DNA of 64,000 nucleotides from an uncultured bacterium (GTDB lineage Bacteria > Cyanobacteriota > Vampirovibrionia > Obscuribacterales > Obscuribacteraceae). The notes beneath the pieces were generated by a model, which saw nothing but the letters and a program-made list of their open reading frames with translations, searched no databases and had not been told where the DNA came from. Shown here in pieces: positions 11,266 through 19,702 of this stretch. The first letter of the stretch is position 1; each line of letters begins with the position of its first letter. The stretch lies in assembly GCA_903835185.1 (NCBI GenBank), contig CAILLX010000070.1, positions 1 through 64,000 on the forward strand, written 5' to 3'. The translations under genes were made by a program, and so were the position numbers.

Positions 11266-12363
11266 TTATAAAGAGTTGAAGGCAGCCTCTGTTGCTTCTG
11301 CTATCTGTTCGGAACCGATTATTTCGTCTGGGCGAGCTACTGTGATTACTCGCTCAATGCCAAAGTCGACCCAATCAAGATCTTCTTGGCTACGAGCAGC
11401 TACAATCCAGAGAGGTCGTTTTGCCTCGGCACATAACTTGGCCAACTGACCTACACCTTTGCCCATGGCCGACTGTCTGTCCAGGTGACCTTCGCCAGAG
11501 ACAACAAGGTCGGCTTTTCCTATCTCCTCGCTAAGGTTAATCTGACTGGACAGCCAATGAAAGCCGGAAATGATCTCAGCTTTTAGGGTGCAGGCAAGTC
11601 CAAAAGCTGTCCCACCGCCAGAGCCAGATCCAGGTCTATTTCTAAAGATGTCTCCAGTTTGAAGCTCTAGAATATCTGCCAGTTTGGAGAGAGCAGAATC
11701 AAGAAGCAGGCACTGTGAACTTGTAGCGCCTTTTTGCGGAGCAAAAATTAAGGCAGCTCCAGTCACTCCGAGAAGCTGATTGGTTACATCAGTGGCAATC
11801 TGGATGGAGATGTTATCTGCTATCTGCTCCAAAGCTTTCAGATTGCAGCTTGCCAGGTTGGTAAGCGAACCACCGCCTAAAGGCAGCTCTGCGCCGCCGC
11901 TGTCCAGAAAAGTTGCACCAAGAGCACGTAGCGCCCCTGTGCCACCATCAGTAGAGGCGCTCCCGCCTACAGCTACCACAATGTGTCTCTCTCCTTGTTC
12001 AATGCAGGCTGCCAGCACCTCGCCTAATCCGAAAGTGTGGGCTGACAATGGCTGGAGCTGTTTGCCTGCCAATAAGGCGATACCGCTGGACGATGCCAGC
12101 TCAACTACTGCTTTCCCAGGCAACTTCAGCCAGGTGGCAAGTGCAGGGTGTCCGAGCGGTCCTGCGACAGTGACCTGGTGAATCTCCCCACCAATTGCCA
12201 TGTTTAGGCTCTCTATTGTGCCGTCGCCGCCGTCTGCTAGAGGCAAGAGGGTTAAATCCAACTGCCTGCCGGAGCGTCTGGCTCCTTTGGCAATGGCAAC
12301 GGACACCTGTGCAGGAGAAAGTGTTCCTTTATAAGCAGAAGGAGCGATAAGAATTCTGGGCAT
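11266..12363 (-). CDS. glxK: glycerate kinase
   Basis: 365 residues of the glycerate kinase type-2 family (GlxK/GarK), which phosphorylates D-glycerate with ATP. Diagnostic stretches include ILIAPSAYKGTLSP at the start, LPLADGGDGT, GGSASTDGGTGAL and, near the C-terminus, LVVSGEGHLDRQSAMGKG (broken for length). I chose the ATG at 12363 because AAGGAAG lies 8 nt upstream; an in-frame extension to 12447 lacks family similarity. Convergent with the LysM gene (24-bp gap) and divergent from the small gene at 12477. The symbol glxK is used by family resemblance; garK would be equally valid. Confidence 0.93.
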   Translation of the reverse strand: MPRILIAPSAYKGTLSPAQVSVAIAKGARRSGRQLDLTLLPLADGGDGTIESLNMAIGGEIHQVTVAGPLGHPALATWLKLPGKAVVELASSSGIALLAGKQLQPLSAHTFGLGEVLAACIEQGERHIVVAVGGSASTDGGTGALRALGATFLDSGGAELPLGGGSLTNLASCNLKALEQIADNISIQIATDVTNQLLGVTGAALIFAPQKGATSSQCLLLDSALSKLADILELQTGDIFRNRPGSGSGGGTAFGLACTLKAEIISGFHWLSSQINLSEEIGKADLVVSGEGHLDRQSAMGKGVGQLAKLCAEAKRPLWIVAARSQEDLDWVDFGIERVITVARPDEIIGSEQIAEATEAAFNSL

Positions 12364-12476
12364 AGAACAAACTTCCTTGAGTGGCAGCGGCAATAAATTG
12401 AAACCTTTACAGCTTTCCAGTTTAAATCCTCGACTGCGGGGGCACATGAGCTGTGGAAGAGTTGGGGAGGAGATTA

Positions 12477-13093: not shown

Positions 13094-13708
13094 TCAACTG
13101 GCAAAAGGCAGCTGCCTGCGCGGGTTGAAATCAGTAGGTACTTCAAAAAACCTGGTTGTCTCTACTAGCTCTTTGATCCTGTCGACGCGGAAAATCATGA
13201 CTTCTTTGCGTTCGTGGCAGAAGGCGACCATTTTCCAGAGAGCATCTTCTTTAATGAGGGCGAGCGGGTTCAGTGTGATCTCATCGACAGACTCGCGGGC
13301 AAAGCTGTAGTAGTGTGCCCTCACTATCCTGTGGTTGATAATTGCTTGTTCGAGAAGGGGTAAAGTTCGATCAACTGCATACATTGGGTAGTTGCATGGA
13401 GATTGTTCAGCTTCCATCTCAACCATATCGAGACAGGCTGCTTGGCGTGCCAGTTCGTCATTTTCATCTGGCTCCACTGAACTAAAGACTGATTCGACGA
13501 TAGCTTCGGCAATTTCATCAGAGAGTCCAGCCAGTGGCGGCGGAATGTGCCCGGACAGCTTGGCTATGATGTCGCGTATTAGTTCATCACGATCTCTGGC
13601 ATGGATACTTATTCCTGCCACTAGCTTATCGAGCAACCTAGCACCAGTGAGAAGCAAGATTCCTTCCTCTGGTGTCAGGTCCAAGGAGAACTTTTGTTCC
13701 ATGTACAT
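13094..13708 (-). CDS. WYL-domain protein without a DNA-binding domain
   Basis: 204 residues. The C-terminal half matches a WYL domain: INHRIVRAHYYSFARESVDEI, LNPLALIKEDALWKMVAFC and a terminal IFRVDRIKELV with PTDFNP. The N-terminal half (LTPEEGILLLTGARLLDKL) corresponds to the region between HTH and WYL in DeoR/YobV-type regulators. The winged-helix DNA-binding domain normally found first is absent, and a ribosome binding site (AGAAGG) in front of the ATG at 13708 supports this as the true start. WYL domains sense nucleic-acid-related ligands. It may act through a partner regulator. Codon use looks like that of its neighbours. Confidence 0.8.
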   Translation of the reverse strand: MYMEQKFSLDLTPEEGILLLTGARLLDKLVAGISIHARDRDELIRDIIAKLSGHIPPPLAGLSDEIAEAIVESVFSSVEPDENDELARQAACLDMVEMEAEQSPCNYPMYAVDRTLPLLEQAIINHRIVRAHYYSFARESVDEITLNPLALIKEDALWKMVAFCHERKEVMIFRVDRIKELVETTRFFEVPTDFNPRRQLPFAS

Positions 13709-13869: not shown

Positions 13870-15231
13870 CTACATCTTCTCCGGAGCTGCCATCCCTATT
13901 ATTCCCAGTACATTGGCTAATACTTGCCTCGTGGCAACTATCAAACCTAATTTTGCCTTTGAGACATCTTGACTGGTTGAGAGCTGCTGGCAGGACTCAT
14001 GAAATCGCTGTAGATTGGTGGCAACTTGGCAAGCGTAATGGGCCAATCTACCTGGATTACGTAGCAAAGCTGCTTCTTCGACTTCGGCAGGCAGATCTTG
14101 CAGGTGCATGACTAAAGCTTTCAGATGCACTAATACATTTAGAGTGCTTGCGAACAAAGGGGTGAAAGTTGCTGCCGAGCTTCTGTATGAGTCCATATAA
14201 TCCTGCCACTGATCCTGCGAAATAGCCGGTGCTTTCTCGATGCCTGATTCTATGTTCAGAGCAGGCTCTAGCGCGTTGCGCAGGATGGCACAGCAGCGTG
14301 CATGTGCATACTGAATATAAAAAGAACTGTTTTTTCGGCTGGACTGTTTGGCTAATTCAAGGTCAAAATTAATTGCATTGTTTGGGTTGGACGCGCAGAG
14401 AAAGTAACGTACTGCGTCGACACCCACTTCATCCAACACTGCAGCCAGAGTGACCTCAGCACCTAGGCTGTCAGACATGCGAAAAAACTGTCCATCTCGT
14501 TGCAGATGGACAGTTTGTGTGGAAATGACCTCTAATTCCGGAGTGTAGCTCTCGGGAAAAGCAGATTTCCATCCAGGCACCGGACTTTGGTTTCCGGCAA
14601 CCTGGACTGTAATCAGATGGTCGTAGCTGCTCAGATCTTCCTCGAGCGCTCCAGATTGGTGCAAGGGGCTGCCGCAGTGCCCGAGATCAAGATCAATCCT
14701 GAGTTTAGACAGGAGCTCGCGGCTGTCTGTAATGTGGAGGTGCTGCTCTACCTGGTGACCGGTAAAAGAGAGCAGATTGGATAGACAGCTGCTATAGACA
14801 GCGCCCCGTCCCTGCTCGATGCCGAGGTTGCCGGCAGGATTAGCTGATACATATTCTATTAAGACCTTTCTGCTGGCGCCAATATTTGATTTTCCAAAAG
14901 CTGGACCAGCCTGGAGGATCTCTTGTAAAGCCTCTTGTAACCAGCCGTGCCCTAAATAGAAGTTGATAAATCCAGGCGCTGCCACAGTGATATGGCAGAC
15001 ATAATTTGGCGAAACATCAATGGCAGATGCGATCTCTTCTGCAAGATTAATTGGTGATTTGTGCAGACGGGCAGCTAGCTTGAGAGCTATGCCGCATGTC
15101 AGGTCGCCATTTTCTGCGCAGCCGGTCTTTCCAATTACTACAGGTAATGACTCTGATACACCTGGATTGCCTGCGGTGATTGCTCTTTTGAGAGCTTGTT
15201 CTACGACTGTTCTGAGTTTGTCTTTAATCAC
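13870..15231 (-). CDS. arginyl-tRNA synthetase-like protein lacking catalytic signatures
   Basis: 453 residues from a GTG. The N-terminal ~110 residues match the ArgRS additional domain (ending APGFINFYL). The core then begins KVLIEYVSANPAGNLGIEQGRG, where active ArgRS has ANPTGPLHVGHGRG: the HIGH motif reads GIEQ. About 100 residues of the catalytic domain are missing between LHITD (near 165-169) and SYDHLITVQ (near 202). The KMSK-like segment is RMSDSLG instead of MSKRAG. The following LLDEVGVDAVRYF-type region and the anticodon-binding DALR domain (YIQYAHAR to the C-terminal APEKM) are well kept. Normal ArgRS has about 550-590 residues. The frame is open and conserved, so this looks like a maintained, non-catalytic tRNA-binding paralogue rather than decay. 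A true argS should lie elsewhere. Confidence 0.8.
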   Translation of the reverse strand: MIKDKLRTVVEQALKRAITAGNPGVSESLPVVIGKTGCAENGDLTCGIALKLAARLHKSPINLAEEIASAIDVSPNYVCHITVAAPGFINFYLGHGWLQEALQEILQAGPAFGKSNIGASRKVLIEYVSANPAGNLGIEQGRGAVYSSCLSNLLSFTGHQVEQHLHITDSRELLSKLRIDLDLGHCGSPLHQSGALEEDLSSYDHLITVQVAGNQSPVPGWKSAFPESYTPELEVISTQTVHLQRDGQFFRMSDSLGAEVTLAAVLDEVGVDAVRYFLCASNPNNAINFDLELAKQSSRKNSSFYIQYAHARCCAILRNALEPALNIESGIEKAPAISQDQWQDYMDSYRSSAATFTPLFASTLNVLVHLKALVMHLQDLPAEVEEAALLRNPGRLAHYACQVATNLQRFHESCQQLSTSQDVSKAKLGLIVATRQVLANVLGIIGMAAPEKM

Positions 15232-15299: not shown

Positions 15300-15857
15300 C
15301 TATTTTGTTCGTGTGAGCTTTGTGGCTAACTTTTCCACTATTGTTTGACCAAAGTCATGGGCTGCTTCCGGACCTACAGCAGTTACAGTTCTGCCGTCGA
15401 ACACCACCGGCTTCTTTAAATAACGAGCTTCACCTTCTGCCAGTGCTGCCAGCGATTCGGTGCACGGCCAGACAGTCGCTTCTTTGTTTTTCAGGACACC
15501 GGCTTTAGCCAAAACCGCTCCAGAAAGGCAGATTCCAGCGACCACCTTCTCATCCTTATCCATTTGCTGTAACAAGCGATGTACGGTTGTATTCTCCCAG
15601 AGATAAGTTGGAGAGCCCATGCCGCCTACAATGACTATAGCGTCGTAGTGTGCCGGATTGACATCGCAAACTTGCGCGTCGGGTTGGCAGCGGGCACCGA
15701 GCATCCCTTTAGCAACACCAGCAGCAGTGCTGGCTACAACTACCTCTGCTCCTTCGTCAAGAAAGATCTTGCGGGGCTCGGCAAGCTCTTCATCTCTGAA
15801 TTGATCCTGAGCAATGACCATGAGAATCTTGGTGCCTAGCAATCTCTTTTCAGCCAT
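15300..15857 (-). CDS. DJ-1/PfpI family protein
   Basis: 185 residues from ATG 15857, chosen because GGAGG lies 7 nt upstream. Class I glutamine amidotransferase-like fold: KILMVIAQDQFRDEEL at the start (with the conserved acidic residue), IVIVGGMGSPTYLWEN in the middle, and the nucleophile elbow AGICLSGAVLAKAG with the reactive Cys. The family includes glyoxalase/deglycase-type stress proteins and intracellular proteases; the substrate cannot be told from sequence. It lies 68 nt upstream of the ArgRS-like gene on the same strand. Confidence 0.88.
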   Translation of the reverse strand: MAEKRLLGTKILMVIAQDQFRDEELAEPRKIFLDEGAEVVVASTAAGVAKGMLGARCQPDAQVCDVNPAHYDAIVIVGGMGSPTYLWENTTVHRLLQQMDKDEKVVAGICLSGAVLAKAGVLKNKEATVWPCTESLAALAEGEARYLKKPVVFDGRTVTAVGPEAAHDFGQTIVEKLATKLTRTK

Positions 15858-16029
15858 TTTTGATCCTCCAGAAAGATTTTTCATGCGTTATCTTACACCA
15901 GCGAGCTGTGTTGCAGGACCGCATTGTGTCAATTTATATAAACCATCTTTGCCAAGCAGCTTCCAGTTGACTGATACTAAATACAGTACCAAAACGTCAA
16001 GTGTGGTCCAACGTCAGGTACCGAATTTC

Positions 16030-16536
16030 CTACTGGTCGCCAGGGCGGGTCCACATATGGCGCACTCTTTGTATTAGATACTGAACATGGTCTGGCATGA
16101 CGTCCGCCGCTGCACCAGGGTGTATAGATCGTTGCCTTTCAGCTACCACCTGGTGGATCATGTCTTCCAGATTGTGCTGCTGCTCTTCATTCAAGAGCTG
16201 GCGCTTGCGTAGATAGTTGGTTGTGGCAGTTGCTCTTAGCAGCTCCTTCTTGCGGGCAATTGACTGTTGCAAGGCAATAATCTCAAGCGGATCAGATCGC
16301 GGGTCTGAAAGCAGCCTGGCAAGTTTGTGCTGCTCATCGACAATAGCAGGCTGGATCTGCATGTAATCATGGTTCCACTGAGATTCAAGAGTCTGAATCT
16401 GCTGTGTTTGTTGCTGGTTCAGATTTAACCTTTGCCAGTTGATGCCGCACTGACTTTCATCTGCCCGCGCTGCAGTGTTGGCGCCAATGACAATGGACGC
16501 AAGAGAAGACAAGAGATAGCTGTTATTGATTTTCAT
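16030..16536 (-). CDS. Spy/CpxP-like periplasmic protein
   Basis: 168 residues from ATG 16536. A signal peptide (MKINNSYLLSSLASIVIGANTAARA) is followed by an all-helical, Gln/Glu/Arg-rich body: RLNLNQQQTQQIQTLESQW matches the LTxxQ pattern of Spy/CpxP and heavy-metal-resistance proteins, and LNEEQQHNLEDMI is a second copy. Such proteins are periplasmic chaperones or sensors of envelope stress. The start overlaps the stop of the anti-sigma gene by 14 nt, so the three genes (sigma, anti-sigma, Spy-like) form one operon. It is inferred to sense misfolded envelope proteins for the pathway. Confidence 0.72.
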   Translation of the reverse strand: MKINNSYLLSSLASIVIGANTAARADESQCGINWQRLNLNQQQTQQIQTLESQWNHDYMQIQPAIVDEQHKLARLLSDPRSDPLEIIALQQSIARKKELLRATATTNYLRKRQLLNEEQQHNLEDMIHQVVAERQRSIHPGAAADVMPDHVQYLIQRVRHMWTRPGDQ

Positions 16537-17428
16537 AAACGACTGCTTCTGCAATGTCTGCAGGTTCGGCCATGGCGGACTCTAAAAGATAAGATTCGGC
16601 GCTGACCGGTCGAACCGCCTGGTTGCCGACTGTATTTGTCACAAAAGTGAGAGTACCTACCAGACCTACCGCCACGGCTGCTGCTGTTAGTAAAACAAGA
16701 TACTTACGAGCATGTGTGGTACCAAGGTTTTGTTTGCTTCTTTCGCCTGTTGTAATGGGGATGACGTTTATGGCACGTTTAATCCCTGTCCAAAGATCGA
16801 AATCTTCAGGCAAGACAGGCTGATAGTGGGTGCGAATTAGGTCGCCCATCTGGGAAAGTCCGTTAAACTCCTCCTGGCACTCCTGACACTCAAGAAGATG
16901 TCTTGTTATAGTTCTGTGCCGCAGGGTGGCAACTTCCTGATCGACAAAGACTGAGAGCTCGCTGCGGATTAAGGTGCAGTCGGCGTTAAGTCTTGACTTG
17001 ACACCGCCCCACAGATCGACAATCAAGGTTTGAGGAAGCTCTAATGCTTTTGAAATCAGCTGATTGGTGGCGTTCAACTTCTTGAATTTGTCACGGCAGT
17101 TAAAACATTCCTTCAAATGTGAATTGATCCCTTCTTGGGCAGAAAGTGGCAACTCCCCGTCAAGATAAGCTGAAAGGTCATCATTAATGACCTCACACAT
17201 ATTTGGCAGATGAGCGCTTACTTGACCCCAGATGTCAGGTATAGGCAGCTCCTCCCCAGGCAACTTCTTTGAAAGGAGTTGGCTTACCGCGCGCAACCCT
17301 TCACACTCCTGGCGGCAACATTCACATTCAAGAAGGTGGTCGGCAATTTCGGAGCGGACCATGCTACTCGTTTCGTTGTCAAGATAGCTTGAAAGCTCTT
17401 CTTTTATACGAGTGCAAGTTGTATTCAT
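16523..17428 (-). CDS. membrane anti-sigma factor with three tandem zinc-finger domains
   Basis: 301 residues. Three ZAS-type zinc fingers repeat with an exact 73-residue period: C5/H31/C35/C38, C78/H104/C108/C111 and C151/H177/C181/C184 (each an early Cys, then H-x3-C-x2-C). Each unit ends in a (D)(I/L)WGxV-like helix (DIWGQV, DLWGGV, DLWTGI). A single transmembrane helix spans about 243-265 (LVLLTAAAVAVGLVGTL), leaving ~35 residues outside. Its ATG overlaps the sigma stop codon by 4 nt (ATGA), a classic translationally coupled sigma/anti-sigma pair. Ordinary anti-sigma factors have one such domain. Confidence 0.88.
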   Translation of the reverse strand: MNTTCTRIKEELSSYLDNETSSMVRSEIADHLLECECCRQECEGLRAVSQLLSKKLPGEELPIPDIWGQVSAHLPNMCEVINDDLSAYLDGELPLSAQEGINSHLKECFNCRDKFKKLNATNQLISKALELPQTLIVDLWGGVKSRLNADCTLIRSELSVFVDQEVATLRHRTITRHLLECQECQEEFNGLSQMGDLIRTHYQPVLPEDFDLWTGIKRAINVIPITTGERSKQNLGTTHARKYLVLLTAAAVAVGLVGTLTFVTNTVGNQAVRPVSAESYLLESAMAEPADIAEAVVYENQ

Positions 17429-18054
17429 GAGGTTGGCACCTCGCTTGGCGGTGTGGCGCTTTCTAGATAAGGCTTAAGCATCTCCTGAAGCTTGGACCGT
17501 GCACGCGCTATGCGCGACTTGACCGTTCCCATCTCTGTTTTGGTCAATATCGCTATCTCCTCGTAACTTAAGCCTTCCACTTCTCGCAAGACGATGGCTG
17601 TGCGAAACTGTTCCGGCAAGCGTGTCATGGATTCGCGAATTACTTCAGAAACTTCGCGGTTAAGAACAATATCATCAGGGCGCAAAGATTTGTCTGGGAT
17701 GTCCCGGGTGGCTCCTTCGCCAGAGTCGTCTGAGTCAAATGAGTCGTCCATGGACACTGTCGGCAGTCTTCGCGGACGGCGGCGTAACTCATCGTAGAAA
17801 AGATTGGTGACAATCTGTGTGAGCCAAGATCTGAAAGAGGAAGGATTCCTTAGATTGTTAATGGAGCGCCAAATGCGGATAAATACTTCCTGGGACAGAT
17901 CAGAGGTGTCGGTCCAGTCTGGTGCCAGCTGATAGAGCAGCGCATAGACGGTACGCTGATGGCGCTTGACCAGCTCTTCAAAGGCTGCTGGTTCGCGACG
18001 CTGGCAGGCAAGCACCAGATCTCTGTCGCTCTTTTGACTGTAGGGTGTGGCCAT
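17425..18054 (-). CDS. ECF RNA polymerase sigma factor (RpoE/SigW-like)
   Basis: 209 residues. Region 2 lies at about 12-80 (LVLACQRREPAAFEELVKRHQ, then DLSQEVFIRIWRSI and SFRSWLTQIVTNLFYDELRRR), with a charged linker DDSFDSDDSGEGA. Region 4 lies at about 140-195 (RLPEQFRTAIVLREVEGLSYEEIA, then MGTVKSRIARARSKLQ). It directs RNA polymerase to stress promoters and is probably held inactive by the membrane anti-sigma encoded next. The start is supported by GAGGAG just before the ATG at 18054. It heads an operon with the anti-sigma and the Spy-like gene, fitting an envelope-stress circuit. Confidence 0.95.
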   Translation of the reverse strand: MATPYSQKSDRDLVLACQRREPAAFEELVKRHQRTVYALLYQLAPDWTDTSDLSQEVFIRIWRSINNLRNPSSFRSWLTQIVTNLFYDELRRRPRRLPTVSMDDSFDSDDSGEGATRDIPDKSLRPDDIVLNREVSEVIRESMTRLPEQFRTAIVLREVEGLSYEEIAILTKTEMGTVKSRIARARSKLQEMLKPYLESATPPSEVPTS

Positions 18055-18424: not shown

Positions 18425-19702
18425 TTGTCACATCGTTACCTGTTCACCTCTGAATCTGTTACTGAAGGGCATCCGGATAAAGTTTGTGATCAAATATCCG
18501 ACGCCATTTTAGATGCCATCCTTATGGAAGACCCAAAGGCGCGAGTTGCTGCAGAATGTTCAGCAACAACAGGACTGGTGCTTGTAGCCGGCGAGATTAC
18601 AACTGCTGCCAATGTTGACATAGTTGAGATAGTAAGGCGCAAGATCCGTGAGATTGGCTATGTGGGTGAGCACGGAGGTGGGTTTGACGGCAACACCTGT
18701 GCAGTCCTGCTGGCAATAGACAAACAGTCGCCAGATATTTCATCTGGTGTAACCAAAGCTCTTGAGCACCGTTTAGATCAGTCACGTGATGCTCACGATG
18801 AAATTGGGGCAGGAGATCAAGGGCTCATGTTTGGCTATGCTTGCACCGAGACTCCAGAGCTAATGCCGCTGCCGATCTCAGTTGCGCACAGAATTGCCAG
18901 GCGGCTGGCTGAGGTTCGCAAAGCAGGTATCCTCAAGTACTTGCGTCCTGATGGTAAGACTCAAGTTACTATTGAATATGAGGGTGACCGTCCGGTTCGA
19001 GTCGATTCAATAGTGGTATCTACACAGCATGATCCAGTAATTGACGGAATAGATGATAACAGTCGCCTCCAGGAGAGGATTGCTTCCGACCTGAAGAAGC
19101 ATGTCATTGCTCCTGAATTTGCTGATCTTCCTATTAAACCGGACGAGCAAACTCGCTATCTTATCAACCCCTCGGGAAGGTTTGTTGTTGGCGGACCGCA
19201 AGGCGACACAGGCTTGACCGGACGAAAGATTATTGTGGACACTTATGGTGGCTATGCTCGCAACGGTGGCGGTGCGCTTTCTGGCAAGGATCCAACAAAA
19301 GTGGATCGTAGCGCTGCTTATGCAGCACGGCATGTAGCCAAGAATATAGTTGCTGCCGAACTGGCAACACACTGTGAAGTGCAGATTGCTTATGCCATTG
19401 GAGTGGCTCGTCCTGTCTCAGTGCACGTTACCACGTTTGGTACAGGCAAGATTGCAGATGATGACATCACTGATCTGGTGCTGGCTAACTTTGACCTGCG
19501 CCCGCTGGCAATAATATCTCGCTTTGATCTTGCCACTCTGCCTAGAGCGTGCAACGGCAGGTTCTACCAGAACGTGGCAGCTTATGGACATTTCGGACGT
19601 AACGACCTGGATCTTCCATGGGAACGTCTCGATAAAGTGGATACCCTCAAGCAGGCGCTCGCACAGATGTCAAAATACTCAGCGCAAACGATGAAGGTCT
19701 AA
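18425..19702 (+). CDS. metK: S-adenosylmethionine synthetase
   Basis: Makes S-adenosylmethionine from methionine and ATP in the cytosol. 425 residues, somewhat longer than the usual 380-400. Signatures: [19 protein letters not shown] at the N-terminus, [12 protein letters not shown] in the middle, [19 protein letters not shown] and [15 protein letters not shown] toward the C-terminus. Translation starts at a TTG (18425) with a strong GGAGGG site 7 nt upstream; the product then begins [10 protein letters not shown] as in the family. It is followed by a strong terminator at 19712-19754, so metK is probably monocistronic. Confidence 0.97.

Follow-up and report, generated by a model that had tools for sequence, protein, structure and literature searches.

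The gene described here lies in a window of 64,000 nucleotides (positions 1 to 64,000 of contig CAILLX010000070.1, assembly GCA_903835185.1; "the window" denotes this whole stretch) from an uncultured member of the Obscuribacteraceae, and encodes a derivative of arginyl-tRNA synthetase (ArgRS). The protein is interpreted as the remnant of a displaced ArgRS, designated type A, kept as a free-standing non-catalytic tRNA-Arg-binding protein that likely presents, holds or protects tRNA-Arg (probability approximately 0.6). A foreign ArgRS of the cyanobacterial type (type B) took over tRNA-Arg charging from type A. The type-A enzyme has lost catalysis, as its sequence shows, and its N-terminal (N) domain, which would contact A20 in the D-loop, and its DALR domain, which would contact the anticodon stem-loop, have stayed in one open frame. 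We infer for the relic the role of a free-standing tRNA-Arg presenter or protector, with an attendant partner and physiological effect: like DALRD3 or Arc1p, it may present, hold or protect tRNA-Arg for another enzyme, either the type-B ArgRS or one that modifies tRNA. A preliminary description of the gene had proposed a synthetase repurposed as a regulatory or tRNA-binding factor. Of this proposal, the non-catalytic nature and the probable retention for tRNA binding stand (a complete argS is present elsewhere and the frames are unbroken in relatives); the HisZ and GCN2 models attached to it have no specific support.

Translation of the window gene (coordinates in the table below) starts at a GTG codon, which aligns with the ATG of homologues. 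The only Pfam families matched by the protein were Arg_tRNA_synt_N and DALR_1, in keeping with the two domains in a long open frame (453 codons) described earlier, and the Pfam search found no catalytic-domain family between them. The type-A ArgRS of Obscuribacteraceae genome G020 (L056; 588 amino acids) was the closest active relative and the alignment reference. It shares 58-60% identity, the same locus and the same neighbours with the window relic but, unlike it, has intact HIGH and RMSKR motifs. The alignment bore out the reported changes of HIGH to GIEQ and of KMSK to MSDS (RMSKR has become RMSDS); the catalytic loss, first put at about 100 residues, is real and larger, with approximately 127 residues of G020 missing in two in-frame blocks. 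The argS equivalog model TIGR00456 matched the protein in three stretches at 204 bits, under its curated cut-off of 261.65, and the relic scored 504.6 bits with the type-A profile and 100.5 bits with the type-B profile. Measured against the ArgRS equivalog, the relic has the N and DALR domains and lacks HIGH and an intact catalytic domain; judged by its sequence, it has lost catalysis.

The family survey comprised 50 genomes of Obscuribacteraceae (Candidatus Obscuribacterales, Cyanobacteriota/Melainabacteria group), the window genome being G000. This genome carries a second, complete argS of type B on contig C212 (586 amino acids, HVGH motif), which removes the possibility that the window gene is its only argS. 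The C212 enzyme is 27% identical to the window protein across the N-terminal 168 residues. Type-B enzymes, including that of C212, have a KMSK-less loop natural to their class, and the loss of KMSK in the window relic is informative only because the parental type A carries the KMSK lysine motif. Type A (ArgRS of about 590 amino acids, close to the window protein) occurred alone in 32 of the 50 genomes, type B was found in 12, and a third type, B', in 3. Active type A accompanied B or B' in two of these 15 genomes (G016 and G018). B or B' was the sole active argS in the other 13, ten of which carried a type-A relic; G019 (65% complete, no B recovered) also carried one, giving 11 relics in total (the window relic and those of ten further genomes). 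A chance or assembly slip was excluded as the source of the window relic by the like pattern in the ten further genomes. The B/B'-only genomes in which no relic was recovered were G015, whose contigs break off in the gap on both sides, and G002 and G024, which belong to the same genus. The B' enzymes are about 35% identical to type B and are encoded at L070 5096-6889, L071 4938-6773 and L072 5335-7158 in the genomes G018, G024 and G002. In G016, where type B is also present, the active type-A argS ends a 968-codon open frame (L061 5290-8196, minus strand) with about 380 extra residues ahead, a possible fusion.

All 11 relics sit in the ancestral argS-A locus, which in relic and active genomes alike has the order metK, sigma factor, anti-sigma factor, Spy-like, PfpI, argS-A, WYL, 166-amino-acid protein, glycerate kinase and LysM protein (single genes are missing in some genomes). 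Because relics and active type-A genes share this one locus, the window gene is the argS native to the family and has not moved, and the complete argS is a horizontally acquired newcomer of cyanobacterial type; the earlier term "paralogue" does not apply to an original argS displaced by an acquired type B. The type-B enzymes of the family form one clade nested in the ArgRS of photosynthetic cyanobacteria (96/87). The internal tree of type B is discordant with the locus tree, which makes transfer of this gene between members of the family probable.

Binding of tRNA-Arg by the window relic is strongly suggested by homology. The ArgRS of E. coli holds A20 of tRNA-Arg by F36, Q40, A78 and N84, with F82 stacking (PMC8975779). 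Residues A84, F88 and N90 of the window relic are the counterparts of A78, F82 and N84. Among the Obscuribacteraceae relics, the F82 position is aromatic in 11 of 11 and the N84 position is Asn in 10 of 11; all four tRNA-Arg genes recovered from the window genome have A20. The AlphaFold model of the window protein had a predicted local distance difference test score (pLDDT) of 85.4 and a predicted template modelling score of 0.88; pLDDT was mostly about 90 in the N domain, mostly 82-98 in DALR and lowest in the catalytic remnant. The comparison with ArgRS structures proposed earlier gave as best PDB match the ArgRS-tRNA-Arg complex of P. horikoshii (2zue), and the E. coli ArgRS-tRNA-Arg complex (5b63) ranked third.

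Scans of the phylum detected no relics in the sampled type-A members of the same class. Proteins made of N and DALR domains (N+DALR, approximately 250-340 amino acids) were found in roughly 30 genomes, which were taken for photosynthetic cyanobacteria by their phylum position and ArgRS type. Those that were fetched were matched better by the type-A profile than by the type-B profile, and the argS genes classified from these genomes were nearly all of type B. Most of the genes belong to one orthologous family, whose neighbours are a HAD hydrolase and a divergently oriented regulator of the Crp/Fnr type. Examples are L177-L193 (e.g. L177 4973-5857, minus strand), and no published function was found for them. 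The family resembles the window relic in its N and DALR modules, its type-A-like sequence and the type-B argS of its hosts; it differs in being an old, independent orthologous family at another locus, with the Asn of the A20 pocket mostly replaced. Orthology with the window relic was not upheld: the relic is sister to the G020 argS-A and lies in the argS-A locus. Because their A20 pocket is altered, the cyanobacterial proteins may differ from the relics in tRNA preference.

The relics have retained their reading frame. It is open in 11 of 11 despite large divergence, and no frame disruption was found in the ten relatives of the window relic, so the pseudogene status that such disruption would have indicated is not supported; a neutral substitution pattern was not found either. 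In the only close relic pair, G021 and G073, the ratio of non-synonymous to synonymous differences per site (pN/pS) was 0.23 for the whole gene (Fisher p 3e-15), with 0.17 in the N and 0.25 in the C part; the neighbour genes are under stronger constraint than the relic. The phylogeny and rate comparison (dN/dS, non-synonymous to synonymous substitution rates) suggested in the preliminary description succeeded in part: the phylogeny placed the window relic as sister to the active G020 gene, and the dN/dS of G000 versus G020 was unusable, dS being saturated. Evidence for selection on the window gene rests consequently on region-wise constraint and stop-free replacements. Of the residues invariant across 16 active type-A enzymes, the window relic keeps 38/42 within DALR against 31/54 within the catalytic remnant (Fisher p 4.6e-4 for these two regions); its N domain keeps 10/14, and its linker and HIGH region 19/27. 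About 101 replacements, part of which may be older than the loss of catalysis, fell on the window-relic branch with zero stops, for a neutral expectation of 5.8 nonsense changes (P approximately 0.003).

Besides the saturated dS, several observations weigh against a maintained tRNA-Arg-binding protein. The relics evolve several-fold faster than the active enzymes (end branches of 2-3.8 in six relics), and G021 is without the last 7 residues that its sister G073 has. In G002, which has a single ArgRS, the whole sigma-to-WYL block including argS is deleted and metK adjoins glycerate kinase (L166 6831-9363); since one genus has lost the whole block, the argS-A relic is not universally required. 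The cyanobacterial equivalent of N84 is now H, D or others, so the A20 reading need not be a common function. The fast evolution, the losses in G021 and G002 and the wide range of relic lengths (249-453 amino acids) would also be expected of a slowly decaying former gene, roleless after displacement, whose open frames are snapshots before loss. We consider such decay unlikely, because all 11 frames are open even at end branches of up to 2-3.8 changes per site, the single measurable pair is under purifying selection, the N and DALR domains were both kept after unlike deletions, and DALR was retained better than the catalytic remnant.

An improbable alternative is that the relic regulates the foreign ArgRS, binding tRNA-Arg or the type-B enzyme and competing with or modulating charging, which would tie the supply of arginine or tRNA-Arg to expression. 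Relics were found only where B or B' is present, or in G019, a genome 65% complete. Photosynthetic cyanobacteria likewise combine type B with an N+DALR protein, and the gene for the latter faces that of a Crp/Fnr regulator. The association with B is however automatic, as A can die only once B exists. In G006, type-B argS adjoins the relic divergently inside the ancestral locus (L041 4929-7546), but in the remaining relic genomes with both genes found, B is on a separate contig.

The conversion of argS-A to a relic happened several times separately, which the preliminary description could not foresee. On the tree of the flanking genes (seven genes, 1,864 columns), no fewer than seven switches from one state to the other, active or relic, are needed on well-supported branches. 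Forcing all relic genomes into one clade was rejected with these genes (approximately unbiased test, p-AU 5e-31), and a single vertically inherited conversion was ruled out by the same tree. The deletion junctions are unlike between relic lineages, with the N and DALR modules kept in all. In the N half, the match to the type-A profile starts at about position 4 (33-34 in G021/G073) and extends to about 114-134, or to 185 in the window relic; in the DALR half it resumes at about 415-452 and runs to near the C-terminus. The window relic and G034 retain more than the other relics, and the short relics hold N and DALR only. A single conversion spread sideways by replacement at the same locus could account for the weak cluster of eight short relics in the argS-A gene tree (77/82) and for the borderline rejection of one relic clade by the gene itself (p-AU 0.05). 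It is very improbable given the unlike junctions, the verdict of the flanking-gene tree, and the grouping of G000 with the active G020 by both the argS-A gene tree (99/93) and the flanking genes (100/100). The gene tree by itself is weaker for the very short relics, some of which may have spread by lateral replacement at the locus, although the unlike junctions argue against this. Retention for the sake of the locus, with the frame spared to avoid polarity on the downstream WYL gene or for the sake of a promoter lying within the argS 3' end, is hardly credible: the co-directional PfpI-argS-WYL order is conserved in several genomes, but relics are open in G006 (WYL not detected) and G034 (no WYL orthologue detected), constraint acts on the relic proteins, and in-frame deletion of everything would serve equally.

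Non-catalytic synthetase derivatives are an already known kind, represented by HisZ (PMC9437257), DALRD3 (PMC7237682) and, as an NCBI family name, NrtL. The closest annotated kind is NrtL (NCBIfam NF045898, ArgS-related anticodon-binding protein), which like the window relic is ArgS-related. Residues 6-453 of the window protein aligned to positions 6-327 of the 327-position NrtL model (1e-34), with the catalytic remnant still present in the relic, but the score was 120.5 bits against a curated cut-off of 340, and the other relics reached at most 67. No paper on NrtL was found in the open literature. Human DALRD3, for which an ArgRS origin has been suggested, binds tRNA-Arg as METTL2 cofactor for 3-methylcytidine formation (PMC7237682). 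It shares with the window relic a DALR domain and the lack of a synthetase catalytic motif; unlike the relic, it is vertebrate-specific and its N-terminal part has no recognizable domain (PMC7237682). HisZ is likewise synthetase-derived and non-charging, but is a class II HisRS relative and a subunit of HisG (PMC9437257), and no such partner was seen for the window relic. A HisZ-like role was rejected, the neighbours (WYL, PfpI, sigma/anti-sigma, glycerate kinase) giving it no support. The HisZ and GCN2 comparison was set aside, as no link to hisG or a kinase was seen; NrtL, DALRD3 and the cyanobacterial N+DALR family are nearer. The open literature yielded no publication describing such bacterial derivatives of ArgRS, and a review of duplicated synthetases from 2022 makes no mention of ArgRS by that name. 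As far as the searched literature shows, a recurrent, in-place origin after displacement is undescribed.

Table. Position of the argS-A relic, its parts and its conserved neighbours in the window
Feature	Position	Strand	Basis
argS-A relic, catalytically dead ArgRS derivative (predicted)	13870..15231	-	open frame, 453 amino acids, stop-free
N-terminal (Add1) D-loop-binding domain, residues 5-93	14953..15219	-	PF03485 1.1e-15, above cut-off
F88-I89-N90, counterpart of F82/N84 in the A20 pocket of E. coli ArgRS	14962..14970	-	alignment
Former HIGH motif, now GIEQ, residues 137-140	14812..14823	-	alignment to active type A
First in-frame deletion junction, 74 residues (G020 177-250)	14721..14722	-	alignment
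Second in-frame deletion junction, 53 residues (G020 282-334)	14628..14629	-	alignment
Former RMSKR (KMSK loop), now RMSDS, residues 251-255	14467..14481	-	alignment to active type A
DALR anticodon-binding domain, residues 306-453	13873..14316	-	PF05746 9.2e-20, above cut-off
DJ-1/PfpI gene, conserved upstream neighbour of argS-A	15300..15884	-	domain search and locus comparison
WYL-domain gene, conserved downstream neighbour	13094..13708	-	domain search and locus comparison
Glycerate kinase, conserved neighbour	11266..12447	-	domain search and locus comparison
Sigma factor / anti-sigma / Spy-like block, conserved neighbours	16030..18054	-	locus comparison
metK, conserved outer flank of the locus	18425..19702	+	locus comparison

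Within the sigma factor block, the anti-sigma-like protein (16523-17428, minus strand) looks like a zinc-finger anti-sigma domain repeated three times in tandem.

The usual picture of a synthetase displaced through horizontal transfer is one of clean replacement; here the old enzyme was retained, decapitated, in 10 of the 13 genomes with B or B' as sole active argS. The same two domains left by unlike deletions constitute a natural experiment, which suggests that tRNA binding by ArgRS can be worth keeping apart from charging. Tentatively, and at slightly less than even odds, ArgRS may have a second, catalysis-free role that the newcomer does not perform, so that the tRNA-gripping halves were repeatedly kept as a dedicated tRNA-Arg-binding protein. 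If true, such a second role would be testable on at least seven natural replicates in one family and on an ancient one in photosynthetic cyanobacteria. Genomes at successive stages are available, with both enzymes active, a partial remnant, the minimal two-domain form or clean loss, and the relics give a clue to what the N+DALR proteins of photosynthetic cyanobacteria, whose function has no name, may do.
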